DNA from: an uncultured Dongia sp.
GTDB lineage: Bacteria; Pseudomonadota; Alphaproteobacteria; Dongiales; Dongiaceae
Assembly (NCBI RefSeq): GCF_936916975.1
Contig: NZ_CAKZGO010000020.1
Coordinates: 1-64,000, forward strand
Reading direction: 5' to 3'
DNA length: 64,000 bases
A program made the position numbers and the translations under genes. The number at the start of each line of letters is the position of its first letter. Position 1 is the stretch's first letter. Below the pieces are notes generated by a model. The model was not told the origin of the DNA and made no database searches. It saw only the letters and a program-made list of their open reading frames with translations. Of the stretch, positions 5,583 through 64,000 are shown one piece after another.

Positions 5583-6182
5583 ATGCTGACGCGTAGAACA
5601 TTTGTGACGGCGGCGGCAATTGCCCCCGCCGGTTCCGCCATCAACCCCGTGGCACGCGCCGATCAGGCCAGCCAGGGGGCATTCATCGGCTCGCTCTCGC
5701 AGCAGGCGATCACCGAACTGACGTCGGCAACGACCGACAAGGAACGCGCAGCGAAGCTGCTGCCGATCCTGCAAAAGTATTTCGACATGCCGAAGCTGGC
5801 CAAGCATACGCTTGGGCTCTACTGGAAGCGTGCGACGCCGGAAGAACAAACGGCCTATGTTGCCGTGTTCACCGAATATATGAGCGCCGTCTACGGCAAG
5901 CGTTTCGCCGAATATTCCGGCCAGTCGCTCGCCGTTCAAAAAGTGCGCGAGACCGGCGAGACCTCGACCGTCTTCACCATCGTCAAGGGCGCCCAGGGCG
6001 AACCCCGTGTCGACTGGGACGTGAACACCGCCGGCGGCAACAACACCATCACCGACGTCCGGGTCGAAGGCCTGAGCCTTGCGGAAACCCACCGCCAGGA
6101 ATTTGCCTCGGTCATCAGCTCGAACGGCGGCAAGGTCCAGGCTCTCATCGACATTCTGAAAAAGAAGGTCGCCTCGATCTAG
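5583..6182 (+). CDS. mlaC: MlaC/Ttg2D-like periplasmic phospholipid-binding protein
   Basis: This 199-residue exported protein belongs to the MlaC (Ttg2D) family, which ferries phospholipids between MlaA and the inner-membrane MlaFEDB complex. Residues 1-26 form a signal with a twin arginine (RR at 4-5, TRRTF) ending near VARADQ; this looks more like a Tat than a Sec signal. The core has the family pattern KYFDMPKLAKHTLG (about 62-75), then YWKRATPEEQ and a C-terminal stretch with FASVISSNGGKVQALI. The first codon is 5 bases after mlaA. No mlaF, mlaE, mlaD or mlaB gene is adjacent. The family call is firm; the Mla role rests on the pairing with mlaA. Confidence 0.88.
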   Translation: MLTRRTFVTAAAIAPAGSAINPVARADQASQGAFIGSLSQQAITELTSATTDKERAAKLLPILQKYFDMPKLAKHTLGLYWKRATPEEQTAYVAVFTEYMSAVYGKRFAEYSGQSLAVQKVRETGETSTVFTIVKGAQGEPRVDWDVNTAGGNNTITDVRVEGLSLAETHRQEFASVISSNGGKVQALIDILKKKVASI

Positions 6183-6212
6183 CTCACCGCGCATTGTCGA
6201 TAGCGTCATCCT

Positions 6213-6247
6213 CCCCGCCGCCCGCAAGGTCGGCGGGGATTTCGTTT
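6213..6247 (+). terminator. Rho-independent terminator after mlaAC
   Basis: An eight-base perfect stem CCCCGCCG (6213-6220) / CGGCGGGG (6231-6238) with a ten-base loop is followed by ATTTCGTTT. It lies 30 bases after the mlaC stop and fits an intrinsic terminator, although the T tract is interrupted. Confidence 0.65.
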
Positions 6248-6314
6248 GCGGCTTGCTGCGATGCCGTGCAATCGCCGACACTGCCGCTTCCGCGCTTAAC
6301 CCGAGAGCTGACCC

Positions 6315-7391
6315 ATGCCTGCCCATCCATCCGTCATCGTCATCGGCGCCGGCATCATCGGCGCCTCGATTGCCTATCACCTGGTGCGACGTGGCGCCCG
6401 GGTCACCGTTCTGGATGCCGGCGAACCGGGCGGTATCGCGACGCGCAACTCCTGGGCCTGGATCAATGCCAGCTGGGGCAATCCGGAACCCTATTTCCGG
6501 CTACGCATCCGCTCGATGGCCGAATGGCGCAGGCTCGCAGCGGATGTGCCGGCACTCGACGTGCAATGGTCGGGCGGCCTGCTATGGGACCTGCCCCGGG
6601 CCGAGCTTGAGGAATACGCGACAGGCCACGCGGCTTGGGGTTATGGCATTGGCGTCATCGATCGCCCCGAAGCCATGCGGCTCGAGCCCGCTTTGGCGTT
6701 TCCGCCGGACCACGCCGTCTATGTTGCCGGCGAAGGTGCCGTCGATCCGCTGGCGTCAGCGCTGGCTCTGCTCCAAGCGGCGCGGGTGCTTGGCGCCGTT
6801 CTGCAGGCACCGATCCGCGTGCAATCTCTCGCGGTCACCGCCGGCCGCGTCACCGGCGTCGTCACGGACCGCGGCGCGATGACGGCCGATACCATCATCG
6901 TCGCTGCCGGCGCAGAAACCGCGCCACTGGCGGCGACGGCCGGCGTCGTTGTGCCGATGAGCACACCGCCCGGCCTCCTGGTGGTCACCAAGCCGCACGC
7001 GAAGCTCTTGAATGGTTTGGTGATGGGGCCGGACATGCATATCCGGCAAATGGCGGATGGAAGTCTCATCGCCGGCACGGATTTCGGTGGTTCGGATCCG
7101 GGCACAGATGCCGCCGCGACGGCGGCCGACGTCTTCACCGGTTTGCAACGCATGTTGCGCGGCGGCGACGGCCTGGCGTTCGATCACTTCAAGATCGGCT
7201 ATCGACCGATGCCGGCGGACGGCTTCCCGATCGTGGGACCCGTCGCCACGGCACCTGGCCTCTATCTGGCCGTCACCCATTCAGGCATCACGCTTGCCCC
7301 CGCCCTCGGTCGCTTCGCCACCGAGGAGATCCTGGATGGCCGGCGCGATCCATTGCTGACCCCTTACGGCTGGGATCGGTTCGCCACCTGA
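6315..7391 (+). CDS. FAD-dependent oxidoreductase, D-amino acid/glycine oxidase family
   Basis: Flavoenzyme of the DAO fold, 358 residues. It opens with the dinucleotide-binding motif VIGAGIIGASIAYHL (G11, G13, G16) and an acidic residue at the end of the second strand (VTVLDAGE). The C-terminus has the second FAD-contacting glycine region of DAO enzymes, near GYRPMPADGFPIVGP, ending with a THSGITLAP segment. Such enzymes oxidise D-amino acids, glycine, sarcosine or other secondary amines; nothing here fixes the substrate. It may belong to one of the amino-acid or peptide pathways that dominate the window. It stands alone between the terminator after mlaC and the small minus-strand ORF that overlaps its 3' end. 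Confidence 0.85.
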   Translation: MPAHPSVIVIGAGIIGASIAYHLVRRGARVTVLDAGEPGGIATRNSWAWINASWGNPEPYFRLRIRSMAEWRRLAADVPALDVQWSGGLLWDLPRAELEEYATGHAAWGYGIGVIDRPEAMRLEPALAFPPDHAVYVAGEGAVDPLASALALLQAARVLGAVLQAPIRVQSLAVTAGRVTGVVTDRGAMTADTIIVAAGAETAPLAATAGVVVPMSTPPGLLVVTKPHAKLLNGLVMGPDMHIRQMADGSLIAGTDFGGSDPGTDAAATAADVFTGLQRMLRGGDGLAFDHFKIGYRPMPADGFPIVGPVATAPGLYLAVTHSGITLAPALGRFATEEILDGRRDPLLTPYGWDRFAT

Positions 7392-7519
7392 GCACCCACC
7401 AGCGCCTTCGGCAACCAGCTTGGCTTGGTGCCGGTCGATGCCATGTACCAAAGCGTCGACATCATGATGATGCTCTGCAGCGCCACGATACCAATACATG
7501 CCAGGGCGATTGTTTGCAT
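7364..7519 (-). CDS. Putative 51-residue single-pass membrane protein
   Basis: On the minus strand an ATG at 7519 opens a 51-codon frame ending in TAA at 7364-7366. Residues 4-27 are strongly hydrophobic (ALACIGIVALQ, then IIMM, ending LWYM), followed by a short polar tail with GTKPSWLPKALVG. An AGAGAGGGA-like purine stretch sits 9-15 bases upstream of the ATG, inside an AT-rich leader that could carry a promoter. The last 28 bases overlap the 3' end of the flavoenzyme gene in antisense. It resembles the small inner-membrane proteins that modulate larger complexes, but I do not recognise a family. The ribosome binding site plus the clean transmembrane helix make it more likely real than chance. 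Confidence 0.5.
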   Translation of the reverse strand: MQTIALACIGIVALQSIIMMSTLWYMASTGTKPSWLPKALVGAQVANRSQP

Positions 7520-7905
7520 TTTATATAATCCCTCTCTAGTTGTGTCTGCCCCATGATGTGAGAATGCGAATTAATGAAACATTAAAATCGCTGTGACCTC
7601 GCATCGCACCATGAAAACTTCTTGAGATTGATATACGTGAATGTGCGTGGCGATCAGAAGCGCACGCTTTGTAGGGCGCGAATGATGGCGTTGACATGCA
7701 GCTTCCTGCGAATCGCGCGGTATGGAATCGCCAATCGAATACGGCGCGCCTCTGACACGCGCGCGCAGATTTCCCGTGCTATCAGGAAACCTCACTGCGG
7801 CGGGTGATCTTCGCTTGCACCTCAGGGTGGCAGCTTATAGTTTCGGTCCCAAGCGCTCTTAATCATATTATCTTACAAAAGCGCAATTGGGAGGTAGTAG
7901 AACGG
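7520..7905. other. Intergenic region between small ORF and ABC operon
   Basis: This stretch holds the leader of the small minus-strand ORF and the promoter side of the sugar-type ABC operon. The segment 7840-7905 is AT-rich, with a TATTAT hexamer at 7866-7871 and the half-palindrome AAGCGCT at 7851-7857, reminiscent of LacI-family operators but incomplete. A minus-strand frame at 7654-7791 faintly resembles the end of a LuxR-type helix-turn-helix (IARE, later RKLHVN), but the spacing is wrong and the frame is closed by stops. No confident gene. Confidence 0.35.
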
Positions 7906-8964
7906 ATGGCCGCAGTCGGAATCCGCGACGTGCGCAAGGCCTTTGGGCCGGCGCAAATTCTTCATGGTGTGTCGATCGATATCGCGGATGGCGAATTCGT
8001 CATCCTGGTGGGGCCGTCCGGTTGCGGCAAATCCACCCTGCTCCGCATGATCGCGGGGCTGGAGAGCATCACCACGGGCGACATCTCGATCGGCGGCCGC
8101 GTGGTCAACGACGTGCCGCCCAAGGAACGCGACATCGCCATGGTGTTCCAGAACTATGCGCTCTATCCGCATATGACGGTGGCCGACAATATGGGCTTCT
8201 CGCTGAAGCTCAAGAAGGCGCCCAGCACCGAAATCAGCACGCGCGTGAACAAGGCTGCGGATATCCTCGGCCTCACACCCTATCTCGACCGTTACCCCCG
8301 CCAGCTTTCCGGCGGACAGCGGCAGCGCGTCGCCATGGGCCGCGCCATCGTGCGCGATCCGCAGGTCTTCCTGTTCGACGAGCCGCTCTCCAACCTTGAT
8401 GCCAAGCTCCGCGTCGCCATGCGCGCGGAAGTCAAGGAACTGCACCAGCGCCTCAAGACCACCACGGTCTATGTCACCCATGACCAGATCGAAGCCATGA
8501 CCATGGCCGACAAGATCGTCGTCATGCATGACGGCAAGGTGGAGCAGATCGGCCAGCCGCTCGAGCTTTATGATCGCCCGCGCAATCGTTTCGTGGCCGG
8601 CTTCATCGGCTCGCCGGCGATGAACTTCATCCCCGGCCACATTGATGCCGGCCCGGTACTGACGGGTGCCGGCGGCCTCAGCATGGCGCTCGGCGCCGAG
8701 GCCACGCAGCACCAGGGTCGCGACGTGACGCTTGGCGTGCGCCCGGAACATCTCACCCTCGGTGAGGGCGGCTTTACCGCCGAGGTCGTGGTGGTGGAGC
8801 CGACCGGCTCTGAAGTACAGGTCAATGCGCGCTTGCCCGGCGGCGAGGAAATCGTCGCCGTCTTCCGCGAGCGCCACATGTTCAAGCCCGGCGAAAAGAT
8901 CGGGCTGAAGCCGCAACCGGGACTCATGCATCTCTTCGATGCGCAGTCCGGCGAGCGCATCTAG
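7906..8964 (+). CDS. CUT1-type ABC transporter ATP-binding protein (UgpC/MalK family)
   Basis: ATPase of a carbohydrate- or polyol-type importer, 352 residues from the ATG at 7906, preceded by GGGAGGT. Motifs: Walker [10 protein letters not shown] at 36-44, Q-loop [10 protein letters not shown] at 81-90, signature LSGGQRQR at 134-141, Walker B FLFDEP at 155-160, then the D-loop SNLDAKLR. After residue 235 comes the regulatory C-terminal domain (MalK/UgpC type, TOBE fold), starting near [10 protein letters not shown] and including LGVRPEHL. Such ATPases often serve several permease pairs. Here the gene leads the operon ATPase, binding protein, permease, permease. Substrates of the family include maltose, glycerol-3-phosphate, sorbitol and trehalose; the sequence does not decide. 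Confidence 0.93.
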
Positions 8965-56745: not shown

Positions 56746-58827
56746 CTAGCGATGGGCCAAAGCGGGCCGCCCAAAGGCCGTGGCCGAAATCTGCGATTCC
56801 ATGAAGATCTTGAGGCCGCCGGCCTGCTCGAACACCTTGTCGGCGCGTTCATGGTTGAGCTCGATATCGACCGCACCCGCTTTCTTGGCCATGTCGCCGG
56901 CTTCCGTCGCCGCCACGTCGCGGGCAAAGGCGGCCGCCACCTCGAGATCGACAAAGTCCTTCAAGCCGCTCGGCAGATGCGCACGGAAGACACCCTCGGT
57001 CGGCTGGGTGATGGTGATGGCGACGCGCTGCATGACACCGCCGGCCACCGCCCCCACCGCATTCGAGACATCGGCATGCGGTGGGATGATGAGCTCGGTG
57101 CGCAGGCGCCGCGCAATCTCGCCGTAATAGCTGCCGACCGGTGCGCCGATCGCCACCAGCGGGAAGTTGAGCTTCAACGCGACATCGATGAGCGCTGCCG
57201 AACTTTGATCATGACTGATCGAACGATCGACCAGATAGCGCCCGAGTGTCCCCCAATGATGCGTGTCGATGCCGGCCTGTTCGGCGATGGCGGTGTCCAG
57301 GATCACGCGCGCCGATTGCAGCACGACCTGTTCGACGATGATGCCGGCCAACTCCTGGCCAGTCTTCGGCGGCACCCAGCCGGCAAAGGAGGCGCGGCGC
57401 AGAAACAGCTCGGCGCCGATCTCGGCAGCTTCCACGCACCAGCTCGTCTGCCGGCCCAGCACATGCGCGGCATCCGAAGGTGTCAGGCCGCTGATGATGA
57501 CGAGGCCGCGATCAACGAGGCGCGCCAGATGGCGGCCGATGGCCGGGCTGAAGACGAGGTCGGCCAGCGCCACCGGGCCGTCGCCCAGCGCCTCCCACAC
57601 TTTCATCTGACCCTCGCTCAAACCTTCGGCGCCGGTATCGAGCGGGCGCTGGCGCAAGGCGAACTGGCCGCGATAGGCCATCATGTCCTCATTGGCCAAT
57701 TGCGCGCGCAGGGTATCAAGGGTCTTGGGGTAAAGATGTGCGAGCAGGCTCAGCGCCACGACGCGCCGCGGCCCCACCATGAAGCCGTGATGCTCATCGA
57801 TGCGCACTTCGCTGTCGCCGCCCAGGCCATAGGTATGCACGGCCACCGCCTCGACCATGGTGCGCCAGCCACCGACCACCGCACCTTCCTTGTTGAGCAC
57901 CGGCCGGCCATGACGCAGCATGGCGATGTCGGTCGTGGTGCCACCCATGTCGGACACCATCACCGTATCGGCGCCCGACAGATGCCGCGCACCCACCAGG
58001 CTGGCGGCAGGTCCGGACAAAATGGTTTCGACCGGGCAGGTCAACGCCACCTGCTGGTCGATGAGCGACCCGTCGCCCTTCACCACCATCAGCGGCGCGT
58101 TGATGCCCTGTTCGGCCAGCAATCCGCTGACGGCACGGATGAGCTGCTGCAATTGCGGAATGAGCCGCGCATTCAACGCCACAGTCAGCGCACGGCGCGG
58201 CGCGTCGAGTTTCGACGTCAGTTCATGGCCGCAGCTCACCGGCTTGTCGGTGAGGTCGCGGATCATCTGCCGGACGGCGATTTCATGGGATGGATTGCGC
58301 ACCGAGAAATAGCCGGAGACGGCAAAGGCCGCGACCTTCGGCGCATGCGTCACGATCGCAGCACGGATGGCTTCGATATCGAGCGGCGCCTGCTCGTCGC
58401 CGGTCGGCTTGTGACCACCGGTCGCAAACACCACCGGGTCCGACCCCAGCGCCTGCTTGAGGCCGGCGCGCTCCAGCGCCTTCGCATCGTAGCCCAGCAG
58501 GATCAGGCAGATCGGCGCACCATGCCCTTCGACGATGGCATTGGTGGCCAGCGTGGTCGACATCGAGACCAGCGCAATGTCGGACGGCTTCACACCCTCC
58601 GGCAAGCGCGGCAACACAGCCTCGATGGCACCTTTGAGACCGATCGCCAGATCATGTTTGGTGGTCAAGGATTTTGCCGTCGCCAATACACCCCCATGTA
58701 CCAGCGGGCTTTCAGCGGCAGACCCGCCGCCATGGGTGGCAATCCCATGATTCGCAATCTTCGCCTGATCAAACAACACGGCATCGGTATAGGTACCGCC
58801 GGTATCCAGGCCGAGCAGAATGGGCAC
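56746..58827 (-). CDS. Hydantoinase/oxoprolinase family protein (HyuA type)
   Basis: ATP-dependent amidohydrolase subunit of 693 residues, ASKHA fold. The N-terminal phosphate loop is LGLDTGGTYTDAVLFD (5-20). Other marks are SMSTTLATNAIVEGHGAPI (about 88-106), ILSGPAASLVGARHLSGAD (about 268-286) and VSDMGGTTTDIAML, the second phosphate loop (about 289-302). The family includes N-methylhydantoinase A, 5-oxoprolinase alpha and acetone carboxylase subunits. It lacks the usual HyuB partner next door, which matters because HyuA and HyuB normally act together. Candidate substrates are hydantoins or 5-oxoproline. Confidence 0.87.
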   Translation of the reverse strand: MPILLGLDTGGTYTDAVLFDQAKIANHGIATHGGGSAAESPLVHGGVLATAKSLTTKHDLAIGLKGAIEAVLPRLPEGVKPSDIALVSMSTTLATNAIVEGHGAPICLILLGYDAKALERAGLKQALGSDPVVFATGGHKPTGDEQAPLDIEAIRAAIVTHAPKVAAFAVSGYFSVRNPSHEIAVRQMIRDLTDKPVSCGHELTSKLDAPRRALTVALNARLIPQLQQLIRAVSGLLAEQGINAPLMVVKGDGSLIDQQVALTCPVETILSGPAASLVGARHLSGADTVMVSDMGGTTTDIAMLRHGRPVLNKEGAVVGGWRTMVEAVAVHTYGLGGDSEVRIDEHHGFMVGPRRVVALSLLAHLYPKTLDTLRAQLANEDMMAYRGQFALRQRPLDTGAEGLSEGQMKVWEALGDGPVALADLVFSPAIGRHLARLVDRGLVIISGLTPSDAAHVLGRQTSWCVEAAEIGAELFLRRASFAGWVPPKTGQELAGIIVEQVVLQSARVILDTAIAEQAGIDTHHWGTLGRYLVDRSISHDQSSAALIDVALKLNFPLVAIGAPVGSYYGEIARRLRTELIIPPHADVSNAVGAVAGGVMQRVAITITQPTEGVFRAHLPSGLKDFVDLEVAAAFARDVAATEAGDMAKKAGAVDIELNHERADKVFEQAGGLKIFMESQISATAFGRPALAHR

Positions 58828-58987: not shown

Positions 58988-59103
58988 ATTCCCTCTCCCC
59001 TCGCGGGAGAGGGTCAGGGTGAGGGGGTGGAACGACCGGACTCGCTGATAGACCCCCTCACCCGCTCGCTTTGCTCGCCACCCTCTCCCGCGAGGGGAGA
59101 GGG
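58988..59103. repeat. Inverted pair of CCCTCTCC repeats
   Basis: Left arm: a CCCTCTCCCC-TCGC-GGGAGAGGG hairpin at 58991-59012 followed by TCAGGGTGAGGGGGT and GGAACGAC. Right arm, reading in: ACCCCCTCACCCGCT... CCCTCTCCCGCGAGGGGAGAGGG up to 59103. The arms are reverse complements over about 35 bases around a middle ending GGACTCGCTGATAG. The whole could fold into a large stem. The element and its GGTGGAACGAC tail recur at 32301-32345. Confidence 0.65.
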
Positions 59104-59150
59104 TTCAACCGCGCCCTAAATTTGCTCCGTAATTGCCGCATCTCTAATCC

Positions 59151-59354: not shown

Positions 59355-60767
59355 ATGATGTTCACTCGCTTGCGACGGCAGTTCCGTGCCGAACCGGCAC
59401 GATACCACCACCGTGCCAACCCGTCCCGACATATCGTCCCGCTGCTGCTCGCCATAGGCCTTTCATTCATCATTGGACTGTCGGAGATACATCCAGCCCA
59501 CGCCGAAACCGCCGATGGCCTGCCGGAAACGGACACTGTCACCTATGACCAGGTGCTGGGCGACCCCGACAATATCGAGCTCAGCTATCGCTATGCGATC
59601 AGCCAGATCCGCAAGGCAGATCTGCTCGGGGCCTCGGCAACCCTCGACCGGTTGATCCTGCTGGCACCCAAGGAACCCAACATCCGGGCGCTGCGCGCGA
59701 TCGTGCTCTATCGCCTCGACAATCTCCGGGAAGCGGAAAAGGAATTTGCCGATCTGCTGACGCTCGACCTCGACCCGGCCTTGCGCAGCGGCATCGAGCG
59801 CTATGCCGCCGAGCTTGACCGGCGCGACCAGCAGACGCGGATGAGCCTGCTCACCAGCATCGGCTATCAGTATGACACCAATCGCGCAGGCGCCCCTGAA
59901 GCGGGCCAGGTGCGCACTTTCCTCGGCACCTTCGACCTCGAAGGCGAAGGCCGCGAGGAAGACGACCACAGCATGACCGGCCTTATCCGGCTCGGCATCG
60001 AGCATGACCTCGCGACGCAGAACCGCAACACGTTGTTCGGATCGCTGACCGCCTATGGCGCCGACCAGTTCCAGCTCGACGATTTCGACACGGTCGACCT
60101 CGGCGCCCAGGCCGGCGGTCGGTTTGAATTCGGCGCCGTCTTCCTGACGCCCACGATCAATTACGATCATCTGTTCCTGGGCGGCGACAGCTATGTCGAC
60201 AGCATCGGTACCAGCCTGCGCGCAGATCTCCGCGTCAACGATCCGATCAATCTGTGGATCAAGGGCGATATGACCTGGATCGATTACGACAATACCGAGA
60301 TGTATCCGACCGGCGACCTGCAGTCGGGCGGCGATGTCGGCATCACGGTCGGTGCCGATTTTTACATCGGCACGGATCAGCGCCTGACAGTGAGTGCCAC
60401 GCATCACGGCTTCAATTCGGACCAGGACTGGGAAAGCTTCGTCGGCGAGCGGCTCAACATCAACCATACCTGGCTGATCGGCGGCGGCGCCTTCCTGCTC
60501 ACCGATCTGTTCGGCGAATATGACAATTACGACATGGCCGACCCGATTACGGGCGAGACCGAGCGCGATGACTGGATCTACCGCGCGCGCTTGACGCTGG
60601 GCGTGCCGGTGCAGACCTTATTCGGCGCCGAGGAATGGCCGACCTTGCTCGATGGCCTCACCCTATCGGTCTATGGCGAGTATTACCGGGCGGAGTCCAA
60701 CATCACGAATTACGAATACGAAAATGCGCGCGGTGGCCTGACCATCAGCAAGCGCTGGGAGTTCTAA
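59355..60767 (+). CDS. TPR plus outer-membrane beta-barrel protein (Slam-like architecture)
   Basis: A 470-residue exported protein from the ATG at 59355; earlier in-frame codons lack a ribosome site. The N-terminus has a long polar lead, a hydrophobic core (about 28-46, VPLLLAIGLSFIIGL) and likely cleavage near PAHAETA. Residues about 65-150 are helical TPR-like repeats (KADLLGASATLDRLILLAP, LRAIVLYRLDNLREAEKEF). From about 155 to the end alternating strands form a barrel (SLLTSIGYQYDTN, GLTISKRWEF) and the last residue is Phe, the usual outer-membrane barrel signature. Periplasmic TPRs on a barrel are the layout of Slam/DUF560 translocators, which move lipoproteins or secreted cargo to the surface. 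The family assignment is from architecture only; two FecR-domain genes follow. Confidence 0.8.
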   Translation: MMFTRLRRQFRAEPARYHHRANPSRHIVPLLLAIGLSFIIGLSEIHPAHAETADGLPETDTVTYDQVLGDPDNIELSYRYAISQIRKADLLGASATLDRLILLAPKEPNIRALRAIVLYRLDNLREAEKEFADLLTLDLDPALRSGIERYAAELDRRDQQTRMSLLTSIGYQYDTNRAGAPEAGQVRTFLGTFDLEGEGREEDDHSMTGLIRLGIEHDLATQNRNTLFGSLTAYGADQFQLDDFDTVDLGAQAGGRFEFGAVFLTPTINYDHLFLGGDSYVDSIGTSLRADLRVNDPINLWIKGDMTWIDYDNTEMYPTGDLQSGGDVGITVGADFYIGTDQRLTVSATHHGFNSDQDWESFVGERLNINHTWLIGGGAFLLTDLFGEYDNYDMADPITGETERDDWIYRARLTLGVPVQTLFGAEEWPTLLDGLTLSVYGEYYRAESNITNYEYENARGGLTISKRWEF

Positions 60768-60806
60768 GCGAACTGAAAATCTTATCTGTGTTGAGGAGAA
60801 GCTGAC

Positions 60807-62063
60807 ATGCGATCCACACGACAGATTTTGCAGCTTGGTGCGATCGGGGCCTTCTTCCCCGGCCTTATTACCTCCGGTGTCATTTTCCCTGGCTTGGCCA
60901 GCGCGGACATTGGCGCACCGGCCGGTGTCGCGGGTGCCGTTTCCGGCAGTGTCGGGCTGGTCTCGCCGGCCAAGGCGATCGCCGAACCGGTTGCGGTCAA
61001 TTCCGGCGATGGCATCGTCATGGGCGATGGCCTCACCACCGGTGCCGAATCCCGGCTGCAGGTCATGCTGCTGGATGAATCGGCGATCACGCTCGGCCCG
61101 GACGCGCAGCTCACCATCGATGAATTCGTCTATGATCCGGCCAACACCAACGCCAATGCCTTGAGCGCCAGCCTGGCCAAGGGCGCCTTCCGCCTGGTGA
61201 CCGGCGCCATCGCACGGCGCAATCCCGACAGCACGACGCTCCGTCTGCCCAACGCCGTCCTCACCATTCGCGGCACCACCGTGATCGGCGCCTGTGCCGC
61301 CACCTGTGTTGTGGCACTCGCCGGCAGCGGTGATGAAAACACTGTCGGCAAGAAGCCGAGCGTGGTGACACTGAAATCCGGCAAGACTGAAGTGGTGCTG
61401 AAACGCGCCGGCTATTACGTCGAAATCGGTGCCGACGGATCGATCAGCGCGCCGCGCGAACTGACTGAAGCGGTCGAGGCGAAATTTGCCAGCCTGTTCG
61501 TGCCCGTGAACGCGCCCGGCGATATCGGCCTGCGCGACGGCGTCGCCGGCCCCGATGGCCGCGCGATCATCCTGGCCTCCGGCCAGCCGGCACAGGATGG
61601 TACGCCACTTGCCCGCGATCAGCGTGATTTCGACTTGGCCGACCGGCTTGATGGCACTGACACATTCGAGGCGACCAGCAATCTGCCGGTCAACCAGGTG
61701 CGCTATTTTACCGATACCGTGCCGATCAGCTTCGCGGGCGCGTCGGGTGGTGGCAATTACGGCATCGACTATTCGCTCAATCTGGCTGAGCGCAGCTTTG
61801 CCGGTAATCTCCTGCTCAATTGCGCCACCTGCTCAGCCGGCACCTTCACCACCACGATCCCATTGCTGGTCAGCCCCTTCGAGAACGGCTTCCATCTGGT
61901 CGAGAGCGGTTCCGTGCTCGACCTCACGGTGGCGGGTGACACCTTCAACATCGATTATGTGATAGGACCCAACAATATCAGCGCCGTGGTGCAATACGAT
62001 GCTGATGGAGCGGGCGCCACGGCGCCGTCAGTGGGCGCCGGCACGGCGCCGAAAGTGCCATGA
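60807..62063 (+). CDS. Secreted FecR-domain protein (first tandem copy)
   Basis: A 418-residue exported protein with a signal peptide (hydrophobic about 12-32, cleavage near LASADI). After a short AGVAGAVSGSVGLVSPAKA repeat-like stretch (about 38-56) comes a FecR domain: VNSGDGIVMGDGLTTGAES, LQVMLLDESAITLGPDAQL, IDEFVYDP. Unlike FecR anti-sigma factors there is no cytoplasmic helix, so this is a free periplasmic or surface protein. A Cys pair follows (GACAATCVVA). The C-terminal 120 residues are beta-rich with GIDYSLNLAERSFAGNLLL and an extra pair (NCATCSAG), ending in a Gly/Pro-rich tail. The ATG has GAGGAGAAG before it and lies 39 bases after the barrel gene. Confidence 0.82.
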   Translation: MRSTRQILQLGAIGAFFPGLITSGVIFPGLASADIGAPAGVAGAVSGSVGLVSPAKAIAEPVAVNSGDGIVMGDGLTTGAESRLQVMLLDESAITLGPDAQLTIDEFVYDPANTNANALSASLAKGAFRLVTGAIARRNPDSTTLRLPNAVLTIRGTTVIGACAATCVVALAGSGDENTVGKKPSVVTLKSGKTEVVLKRAGYYVEIGADGSISAPRELTEAVEAKFASLFVPVNAPGDIGLRDGVAGPDGRAIILASGQPAQDGTPLARDQRDFDLADRLDGTDTFEATSNLPVNQVRYFTDTVPISFAGASGGGNYGIDYSLNLAERSFAGNLLLNCATCSAGTFTTTIPLLVSPFENGFHLVESGSVLDLTVAGDTFNIDYVIGPNNISAVVQYDADGAGATAPSVGAGTAPKVP

Positions 62064-62172
62064 TGTCGGGCGCATGAGCTGAAGGCGGGACTTACGGACT
62101 TGCCCAAATCGGCCGCTTCGGGCCATGCTGCACCTAGACGGCCGGCCGACCCGCCTTCGAGGAGTTTCTAAG

Positions 62173-63390
62173 ATGCCCCGCAGCAGATATCTACTACCAT
62201 TGGGCGCCATCCTGGCACTCGCAATGCCGGGTGCGGCTTGGGCAGTGGGCGAGCCGGCCGGCGTGGCCGGCGCCGTTTCCGGTGCGGTCGGGCTCGTCTC
62301 GCCGGCAAAGCAGATCGCCTCGCCGGTCGCGGTCAATTCAGGGGACGGCATCGTCATGGGCGATGGCCTCTCGACCGGTGCGGATTCGCGGCTGCAGGTC
62401 ATGCTGCTGGATGAATCAGCCATTACCTTGGGACCGGATGCGCAGATCACCATCGATGAATTCGTCTATGACCCAGCCAACACCAACACGAACGCCTTGA
62501 GCGCCAGCCTGGCCAAGGGCGCCTTCCGCCTGGTGACCGGCGCCATTGCGCGCCAGAACCCAGAAGGCACGGCGCTCACCTTGCCAAATGCGGTGTTGAC
62601 CATCCGTGGCACCACCGTGATCGGCGCCTGTGCCGCCACCTGTTTCGTGGCCCTGGCCGGCAGCGGCGATGCCAACACCGCGGGCAAGAAGCCCAGCGAA
62701 GTGACGCTGAAATCGCCTAAGAACGAAGTCGTGCTGAAGCGCACCGGCTATTATGTCGAGATCGGCGCCGACGGTGTCATCAGCGAGCCGCGCAAACTGA
62801 CCGATGACATCGACGCAAAATTCGCCAGCCTGTTCGTACCCGTCACGGGAGCGGTGGGCTCACCGGGGAGTTTCCGGCCCGACGGCAGCAGCATCCTGGG
62901 CCAGACCGGGCAGCCGACGCAGGACGGCAACCCGCTCGCCATCAACCAGCGCACCTTTGAGAACGCCGACCAGCTCGACGGCAACGACACGTTCGAGGTG
63001 ACCAGCAACCTGCCCTCCGCCAAGATCGACTATGCCAGCGGCGCCATCGGCTTCGCCGGTGGCTCGGGCGATGGCGATTACTACATCAACTACACGCTCG
63101 ACCTCGCCGCGCGCAGTTTCGACGGCAGCCTGACCATCGACCATCAGGACGAAGGCTTCGTCAGCACCATTCCGCTGGCCGCCAATCCCTATGCCGGCAG
63201 TCTCAGTCTGGTCGATTCGGGCTCGGTGCCCGGCGCCTTGCTATCCAGCGCCGCCAATCCCAATGCGGTCTTCAACCTTAACTACACGATCAGCCAGAGC
63301 GGCATCGACACCAGCTTCCAGTATGACGAAGACGGTCCGCTGACTGCTCCACCCTCCACCGGTTCCGGTGTCGCACCAGCCGTTCCCTAA
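62173..63390 (+). CDS. Secreted FecR-domain protein (second tandem copy)
   Basis: Paralogue of the preceding gene, 405 residues from the ATG at 62173 (GAGGAGTTTC upstream). Signal peptide 1-25 (LLPLGAILALAMPGAAWA). The FecR half is nearly identical to the first copy in both protein and DNA (VNSGDGIVMGDGLSTGADS, LQVMLLDESAITLGPDAQI). The C-terminal half has diverged but keeps the pattern YINYTLDLAARSFDGSLTI, IPLAANPYAGSLSLVDSGS and a GSGVAPAVP end. It lacks the second Cys pair of the first copy. The repeated FYD-strand layout of the last domain resembles small lipocalin-like or TbpB-type barrels. It probably arose by tandem duplication. Confidence 0.82.
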   Translation: MPRSRYLLPLGAILALAMPGAAWAVGEPAGVAGAVSGAVGLVSPAKQIASPVAVNSGDGIVMGDGLSTGADSRLQVMLLDESAITLGPDAQITIDEFVYDPANTNTNALSASLAKGAFRLVTGAIARQNPEGTALTLPNAVLTIRGTTVIGACAATCFVALAGSGDANTAGKKPSEVTLKSPKNEVVLKRTGYYVEIGADGVISEPRKLTDDIDAKFASLFVPVTGAVGSPGSFRPDGSSILGQTGQPTQDGNPLAINQRTFENADQLDGNDTFEVTSNLPSAKIDYASGAIGFAGGSGDGDYYINYTLDLAARSFDGSLTIDHQDEGFVSTIPLAANPYAGSLSLVDSGSVPGALLSSAANPNAVFNLNYTISQSGIDTSFQYDEDGPLTAPPSTGSGVAPAVP

Positions 63391-63407
63391 AACAATCAGG
63401 ATTGATC

Positions 63408-64000
63408 ATGCGTGATTTCCACCAGCCCGGCCGCTCGGCCATCTATGCGAGCGACGGTGCCGCTGCGACCTCCCACCCGCTGGCCACTGCCGCCGCCCTC
63501 GAATGTTTGAAAGCCGGCGGCAACGCGATCGATGCCGCGATCACGGCGTCTGCCGTGCTGGCGGTGGTGGAACCCGCCATGACCGGCATCGGCGGTGATT
63601 GCTTCGTGCTGCTCTCCAAGGGCGGCAGCGACGACATCATCGCCTATAACGGCAATGGTGCTGCTCCCCTGAAGGCCGAGCCCGGCTATTTCCAGGAACG
63701 GGGCCTGACCGAGATCGCGCCCGATTCCGTGCATGCGGTCACCATTCCCGGCGCCATCGAGGCCTGGTGCCGCCTGGCGGCCGATCACGGCACCTACGGC
63801 ATCGACCGCCTGCTGCGTCCGGCCATCCATTATGCCGAGGCAGGCTTCCCGGTGGCCCCCCGCGTCGCCCATGACTGGGTCCAGGAGGAAGAGAAGCTGC
63901 GGCGCGATCCGGCAGCGGCGGCCAGCTACCTCATCGGCGGCCAGGCGCCCAAGATCGGCGACAAGGTCCGTCTGCCTTTGCTGGCCCGGACCCTGCGCGA
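63408..64000 (+). CDS. Gamma-glutamyltransferase, N-terminal part (cut by window edge)
   Basis: The frame opens at the ATG at 63408 (CAGGA upstream) and stays open to the window end, giving the first 197 residues. It matches the start of gamma-glutamyltransferase/gamma-glutamyl hydrolase proteins: AIYASDGAAATSHPLATAAA (12-31), LKAGGNAIDAAITASAVL (34-51), EPAMTGIGGDCFVLL (55-69) and the VTIPGAIEAWC segment. These are Ntn hydrolases processed at a threonine further on, outside the window. No signal peptide is present at the start, so it may be cytoplasmic or the acylase-like type. A nearby HyuA-type gene could handle 5-oxoproline, the product of gamma-glutamyl turnover. Confidence 0.9.
   Translation, partial: MRDFHQPGRSAIYASDGAAATSHPLATAAALECLKAGGNAIDAAITASAVLAVVEPAMTGIGGDCFVLLSKGGSDDIIAYNGNGAAPLKAEPGYFQERGLTEIAPDSVHAVTIPGAIEAWCRLAADHGTYGIDRLLRPAIHYAEAGFPVAPRVAHDWVQEEEKLRRDPAAAASYLIGGQAPKIGDKVRLPLLARTLR

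Follow-up and report, generated by a model that had tools for sequence, protein, structure and literature searches.

The Locus and Its Genes

The first 64,000 nucleotides of contig NZ_CAKZGO010000020.1 from an uncultured Dongia sp. (GCF_936916975.1), referred to as the window, code near their end for a putative outer-membrane barrel protein and two FecR-domain proteins (59355-63390). This locus is analyzed here as a candidate export cassette of the type 11 (Slam/DUF560) superfamily, which had been proposed from the sequence alone (the original prediction). All three genes are encoded on the forward strand. The gaps are 39 bases between the barrel gene and the first FecR gene and 109 bases between the two FecR genes. 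This agrees with the layout of the original prediction, a tetratricopeptide repeat (TPR)-like and barrel gene ending in Phe with two FecR genes behind it. A GAGGAG stretch, read from the sequence, is found upstream of both FecR starts.

The barrel gene (59355-60767) is an open reading frame (ORF) for 470 amino acids (aa), which combines a TPR part with a barrel and has a C-terminal Phe. Its N-terminal signal region (59355-59504) was read by eye, with a predicted cleavage near AHA-E. The putative periplasmic TPR region (residues ~62-159, 59538-59831) is indicated by TPR_9 and TPR_19 matches, by confidently modeled helices and by a TPR profile match. The Pfam matches of the protein (TPR models and HrpB1_HrpK) are all below cut-off. 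The predicted outer-membrane barrel (residues 160-470, 59832-60764, including the C-terminal Phe) is assigned by the family-level profile comparison described below. AlphaFold gives confident TPR helices for residues 61-150 (predicted local distance difference test (pLDDT) of 77-86 for the block), while mean pLDDT is 42.9 for the barrel protein, with the barrel itself below 50, and 29.7 for the FecR protein. Both models were computed from a shallow alignment (window plus one relative locus). Since they are unusable outside the TPR part, the strand patterns of the barrel and FecR proteins rest on sequence. A search of solved structures with a 16-row profile listed 60 sequences, all in the TPR region except for two at chance level (E 1.4 and 3.4), which cover barrel positions 395-416.

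FecR-domain protein 1 (60807-62063, 418 aa) has a Sec-type signal, a FecR domain (residues 76-159, 61032-61283) and a beta-rich C-terminal domain that extends from an SNLP motif to the end (61677-62060). Protein 2 (62173-63390, 405 aa) is a paralog with 63% sequence identity and has the same organization, with the FecR domain at residues 66-149 (62368-62619) and the beta-rich C-terminal domain at 63004-63387, again from the SNLP motif to the end. That both are FecR-domain proteins with a secretion signal was borne out, as PF04773 matches both above its cut-off of 24 (31.3 and 30.7 bits) and signal peptides could be read. By eye, a lipobox is not seen in either signal peptide, and the two proteins showed no noticeable signature of RTX or of type I export.

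Four genus members have the barrel gene at 66-77% identity, each with a FecR gene behind it, and in a metagenome-assembled genome (MAG) of Dongia mobilis, which provides the closest named locus, the barrel is 85% identical over a C-terminal piece, again with FecR behind. Because the barrel gene and its FecR follower are kept in relatives, the arrangement is more than chance. The D. mobilis locus has the FecR duplication as well; a single copy is present in the corresponding stretch of the remaining genus members compared. The barrel gene of the D. mobilis MAG is split by a stop (L009:4774-6156, corresponding to L031:8781-10163), both FecR genes being open. This may be a real loss or an assembly error. 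L009 and L031 agree in length and in their matches and are apparently one contig, and only L031 is used in the counts.

Relationship of the Barrel Protein to Slam

Slam outer-membrane proteins consist of a 14-stranded barrel and a periplasmic TPR domain. The proteins described by the Pfam models SlipAM (PF04575) and TPR_Slam (PF24575) resemble the barrel protein from the window in having an N-terminal TPR part, a barrel of ~290 residues and an adjacent partner gene. A C-terminal strand motif (SN..Y.Y......F) is common to both and takes the form ESNITNYEYEN...KRWEF near the end of the window protein. Unlike in Slam, the window barrel is below Pfam detection, the partner is of FecR type and usually encoded downstream, and the locus type is often linked to CHASE2 genes.

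A family profile, built from the barrel protein and 15 homologs with identities down to 20%, was compared with a set of 30 PF04575-hit proteins. These were taken from a phylum sample in which 49 of 299 genomes have a match, 42 of them above cut-off. The whole-protein profiles align over 383 columns with E 2.6e-47. The TPR part alone matches with E 1e-17, and the barrel alone, compared by hhalign, with E 1.6e-33 over 285 columns. When the profile is restricted to the clade of the window (seven rows from the Dongia group and its sister genus), the barrel-only match still has E 7.8e-21. Reversed profiles gave 7.6e-4 for the family and 0.2 for the window clade, and three column permutations gave 0.047 or worse. 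The family barrel also matches the nine strongest Slam rows on their own (E 9.6e-19). Because these comparisons far exceed the controls, the family is assigned to the Slam superfamily as a distant member. By these profile comparisons, the barrel protein from the window is judged to be a distant relative of Slam/DUF560.

Unrelated barrels score much lower against the family (BBP2_2, E 6.5e-6; PgaA, 0.02) and against the window clade (0.15 and 0.2, respectively). The profile check against other barrel families suggested with the original prediction thus favors Slam, with the reservation that the BBP2_2 and PgaA controls are above zero. Generic barrel likeness as the whole cause of the similarity is disfavored by the same controls.

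Co-Occurrence of Barrel and FecR Genes

A first survey found the barrel in 20 of 61 genomes. Among the first 20 loci (L031-L050), the barrel was recognized by models in 19, and in 16 of these 19 a FecR gene lies at most 4 kb away. In a class-wide profile search, 85 of 385 sampled genomes match the barrel family with E 1e-15 or better. The class survey derived from it covers 80 of the 98 matched places (17 were already in the earlier locus set and were left out, and one was not included). These were classified by the higher-scoring profile as family-like (65) or Slam-like (15). A FecR gene is found within 4 kb at 47 of the 65 family-like loci and at none of the 15 Slam-like loci (Fisher p 1.6e-7); at 41 family-like loci it is directly downstream, on the same strand and within 200 bases. 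For comparison, the genome that contains the window has at least 12 FecR matches in 5.48 Mb, so that the probability of encountering one at random in an 8-kb stretch is roughly 2%. The opposite distribution is seen for TbpB-type neighbors (cleaned cargo model, more than 20 bits), which occur at 1 of 65 family-like and 6 of 15 Slam-like loci. The loci are partly non-independent, because several of the sampled genomes share a family and near copies occur (e.g., L138 and L139).

When FecR linkage is mapped onto a tree with 130 barrels, 12 changes are required, compared with a mean of 39.0 when labels are shuffled, and none of 500 shuffles was as low. The window barrel falls inside the FecR-linked sets of this tree, which was computed by a quick method and in which several long branches and unusual compositions were flagged. 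At the level of the family, there is good support for these barrels being a divergent branch of the type 11 superfamily with FecR partners. In line with the expectation that cargo is encoded beside its translocator and that the genes co-occur in other genomes, FecR neighbors are regular and recur widely.

The FecR linkage extends beyond the family-like loci to the Slam-like side. In a separate set, 9 of 20 PF04575 loci have a FecR gene beside a Slam-like barrel, and when all 135 barrel rows are considered, which include score-picked loci, FecR is within 4 kb at 69 of 91 family-like and 14 of 44 Slam-like barrels. One such region, L113 (G272:C1:57000-76000), combines two barrel genes of the Slam-like type with three FecR genes, one of which codes for an 1152-aa FecR protein with a TbpB-type end.

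Of the 18 genomes with a family-like barrel that lacks a FecR neighbor, 12 were checked, and 11 of these carry FecR genes elsewhere. Twenty such scattered places, chosen to be mostly longer, were inspected. Ten code for FecR combined with a TbpB-type end; the remaining ones resemble large repeat adhesins or lack a recognizable end. This is suggestive of one exporter serving several scattered cargoes, which fits better than a receptor pair; the argument is suggestive and no more, since FecR genes are common. FecR-model matches were also seen in giant repeat proteins with matches to VCBS and RTX-like models (L322, L325, L327), and L325 adjoins a divergent CHASE2 gene.

C-Terminal Domains of the FecR Partners

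The models for FecR, CHASE2 and TbpB-type ends were derived from the loci of this analysis. For FecR, they were confirmed by Pfam in 34 of 34 and 29 of 30 partners given. The 89 partner ORFs range from 149 to 1632 aa. A leave-one-out hidden Markov model (HMM), which omits the locus of the query and its close copies, finds a TbpB-type C-terminus in 25 of the 67 partners with at least 350 aa (1 of 67 for reversed sequences). A model of six cargo proteins, namely those in which the FecR model finds nothing, still detects 18 of 67 (reversed, 0). In profile comparisons, the ends of long FecR partners match the six cargo proteins with E 2.3e-12 (reversed, 0.018), a set of six distant ends matches them with E 2.7e-9, and shorter ends, which form an intermediate group, match the long ones with E 3.9e-6 (4.7e-5 for an enlarged group).

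The clearest case is provided by four genomes from one genus (L263-L266), in which FecR and a TbpB-type end are part of a single protein of 570-584 aa. These fusions adjoin a barrel gene that is above the PF04575 cut-off, with a CHASE2 gene alongside. Their ends match the cleaned cargo model with E 1.6e-6, 1.9e-6, 1.8e-9 and 2.6e-14. In L266, the 570-aa protein has FecR at 51.7 bits and TbpB_B_D at 30.3 bits (cut-off 26), and its barrel neighbor has SlipAM at 60.0 (cut-off 22) and TPR_Slam at 40.4 (cut-off 35.2). For L263 and L265, Pfam gives FecR and SlipAM, and no TbpB_B_D at E up to 0.01. Among the two sets of partners given to Pfam, TbpB_B_D is found in 2 of 34 and 6 of 30, and FHBP_C in one and six, at E up to 0.05 and, among the matches listed, mostly or all below cut-off. 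The NCBI model for "Slam-dependent surface lipoprotein" matches 1 of 34 FecR partners (E 3.3e-9).

Slam cargo is typically lipid-anchored; non-lipidated cargo has also been described. Many FecR partners resemble type 11 cargo (TbpB_B_D, slam_lipo) in their TbpB-type ends, with L266 being above the Pfam cut-off. They differ from it by their N-terminal FecR domain and by the lack of a lipobox in most cases (a crude pattern is found in 8 of 89), and the C-termini of the two window proteins are undetected. A likeness to the LapA retention module (NF033682) is seen in 9 of 34 FecR partners (best E 2e-7); the bit scores of the window proteins (18.6 and 18.3) and of L327 are under the cut-off of 50.

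The ends from the window group match the enlarged intermediate group with E 1.4e-4 (reversed, 0.16), a profile that covers both window proteins. Via this group, a TbpB-type C-terminus in the FecR proteins of the window is weakly supported. The claim of TbpB-like C-terminal domains in the original prediction therefore holds for many FecR relatives, including L266; for the ends of the window proteins themselves the evidence is weak and indirect.

Probable Export or Possible Signaling

The homology of the barrel to Slam, the FecR pairing across many genera, the TbpB-type C-termini and the CHASE2 linkage in relatives are results of computation. On balance, we regard a divergent type 11 export cassette with FecR-domain cargo as the probable identity of the locus. 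The barrel protein would be inserted into the outer membrane, and its TPR part would face the periplasm. Both FecR proteins would be translocated across the inner membrane by Sec and would lack a lipid anchor. They might be recognized by their C-terminal beta domain, their FecR domain or both, and would then be handed on to the cell surface or displayed on it. Translocation as such, and its application to the two proteins of the window, is what we infer. If this is true, type 11 secretion reaches beyond TbpB-type lipoproteins and into a large set of genomes, and a candidate role emerges for a group of FecR-domain proteins outside sigma regulation. It would also suggest that a single pathway may comprise an outer-membrane exporter together with its cargo and a cyclic AMP or phosphorelay sensor.

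Several points weigh against an export cassette. PF04575 has no match in the window barrel protein (hmmscan, E up to 1), so that the Slam relationship suggested by the original prediction stands as distant homology and fails as direct family membership. A PF04575 search of the genome that contains the window also found none, as did that search in its control genomes. The window clade (seven rows) matches the nine strongest Slam rows with just E 7.8e-6. Generic barrel likeness is not negligible, because the Slam set itself matches BBP2_2 (E 1.8e-9) and PgaA (2.7e-6). No FecR neighbor is found at 18 of the 65 family-like loci, 22 of the 89 FecR partners are shorter than 350 aa, and several have Pro/Gly-rich tails in which a cargo domain is not visible. 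Direct TbpB-type HMMs miss both window proteins at the threshold of 1e-3 (protein 1: E 1.9, 1.4 and 3.2; protein 2: 0.19, 0.2 and 0.0067). Neither do the C-termini of the window group match the six cleaned cargo proteins (0.13; reversed, 0.052) or the original ten-end cargo set (0.03; reversed, 0.048). In the latter, three ends (L064, L066, L069) come from the FecR fusions L263, L264 and L266, and one (L067) is N-terminally cut. Finally, a CHASE2 gene is within 5 kb at 31 of the 65 family-like and none of the 15 Slam-like loci of the class survey, which suits a signaling function as well.

Because about half of the family-like loci hold a CHASE2 gene, signaling is the main rival to export, or it may be an added role. 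The barrel would sense the outside, and its TPR part would relay the signal to the periplasmic FecR protein, which controls an inner-membrane CHASE2 cyclase or kinase. Such a trans-envelope module is possible, and we rate it as rather unlikely. The CHASE2 genes at family-like loci, which had been missed in the original prediction, code for an adenylate cyclase or a histidine kinase. Among all 135 barrel rows, CHASE2 is found at 39 of 91 family-like and 8 of 44 Slam-like barrels, and it was detected in 14 of 50 neighbor genes that were chosen from 130 listed ones and scanned. Plasmids from Shinella sp. H4-D48 and Paracoccus aminophilus (pAMI5) have consecutive genes for a barrel, a FecR protein and a cyclase. 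For Shinella, CHASE2 was verified with Pfam; in the FecR protein from Paracoccus, TbpB_B_D scores 22.1 bits, below the cut-off of 26. A plasmid from Azospirillum thermophilum has barrel and FecR genes, with no cyclase in the stretch. Among named plasmids, the window barrel as query gave no match, and a relative as query gave three.

Such signaling neighborhoods are already known. As far as the accessible text describes it, one cluster in Campylobacterota contains a CHASE2 cyclase, a phosphodiesterase, a FecR protein and a TPR protein (PMC9239204). The adjacency of CHASE2, FecR and TPR genes is shared with many relatives of the window locus. Unlike there, the TPR protein of this cluster, compared by description only, is not called a Slam-like barrel in that text, and the window lacks CHASE2. 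A LysM-FecR protein occurs with a CHASE2 kinase in Burkholderia, according to the available part of the report (PMC5192318). The excerpted texts on Sinorhizobium meliloti state that the cyclases CyaK and CyaD1/D2 need the outer-membrane barrel NsrA (PMC7529298) and that they carry CHASE2 (PMC13001267). Against signaling, the S. meliloti FecR gene smc02177 is reported to be dispensable for plant-signal perception (PMC5498481). NsrA has its barrel at residues 600-1200 and is therefore larger than the window barrel protein (PMC7529298, in part). Moreover, a mere periplasmic relay would not be expected to involve FecR proteins that have TbpB-type ends and reach 600-1632 aa, and no CHASE2 gene is found beside the window locus, the five in its genome all being on other contigs. 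At L135 (G000:C5:66000-78000, 5675-8299), which is from the same genome, a FecR gene is directly followed by a CHASE2 gene, with no barrel match in the stretch.

It is tempting to speculate that both aspects are combined in a non-lipidated type 11 display, a scenario that we consider doubtful. The C-terminal barrel domain would lead the FecR protein out via the Slam-like barrel, and the N-terminal FecR domain, folded in the periplasm, would act as a retention plug that replaces the lipid anchor. At loci with a linked CHASE2 cyclase or kinase, this enzyme would receive a report of surface display or of ligand binding, and the window would represent a minimal form without a sensor gene. The idea of a retention and reporting plug is based on the absence of a lipobox from most partners, the weak LapA likeness of 9 of 34 and the CHASE2 linkage.

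The barrel could also be a porin or nutrient channel that exports no protein, and the FecR proteins could assist it from the periplasm in a structural or regulatory capacity. This would fit the missing PF04575 match and the fact that the locus in the Dongia group adjoins gamma-glutamyltranspeptidase and hydantoinase/oxoprolinase genes. It is improbable, given a full-length similarity of TPR and barrel to Slam that is well over that of other barrels, and cargo-type C-termini in relatives; a simple porin was rejected on these grounds. A classical FecI-FecR-FecA sigma-factor system is suggested by the name of the FecR domain and its presence in such regulators. It is very improbable here: by eye, both proteins start with a cleavable-type signal, not with a cytoplasmic anti-sigma part. 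It was rejected because the flanking genes code for a hydantoinase/oxoprolinase, an L,D-transpeptidase and, by comparison with the Dongia relative, a gamma-glutamyltranspeptidase, and an adjacent sigma factor and TonB receptor were not encountered.

With respect to type 11 secretion, the term FecR is absent from the main text of the 2021 and 2025 papers (PMC8406197, PMC12282271), and the latter, according to that text, analyzed two of ten clusters. A paper on Lysobacter places a FecR-family regulator within a transferrin-receptor gene group, in the portion of its text that is available. A literature search over accessible main texts found neither a Slam-type barrel identity for the TPR partner in the Campylobacterota cluster nor a mention of FecR among the domains of type 11 cargo.

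Neighboring Genes

In Dongia-group loci, a gamma-glutamyltranspeptidase gene is apparently located 3' of the FecR genes (63402-64000 in the window; L031-L036). This assignment was made by Pfam for L032, and by ORF place or start for the remaining loci. A hydantoinase/oxoprolinase gene is located upstream on the opposite strand (56746-58827), and an L,D-transpeptidase was also among the flanking genes tested. In the sister genus (L036, L037), an opposite-strand alpha/beta-hydrolase gene is positioned between the barrel and FecR genes. The intergenic region 5' of the barrel gene contains inverted repeats resembling repetitive extragenic palindromic (REP) elements, CCCTCTCCC...GGGAGAGGG, which were noticed by eye at about 58990-59105 of the window.

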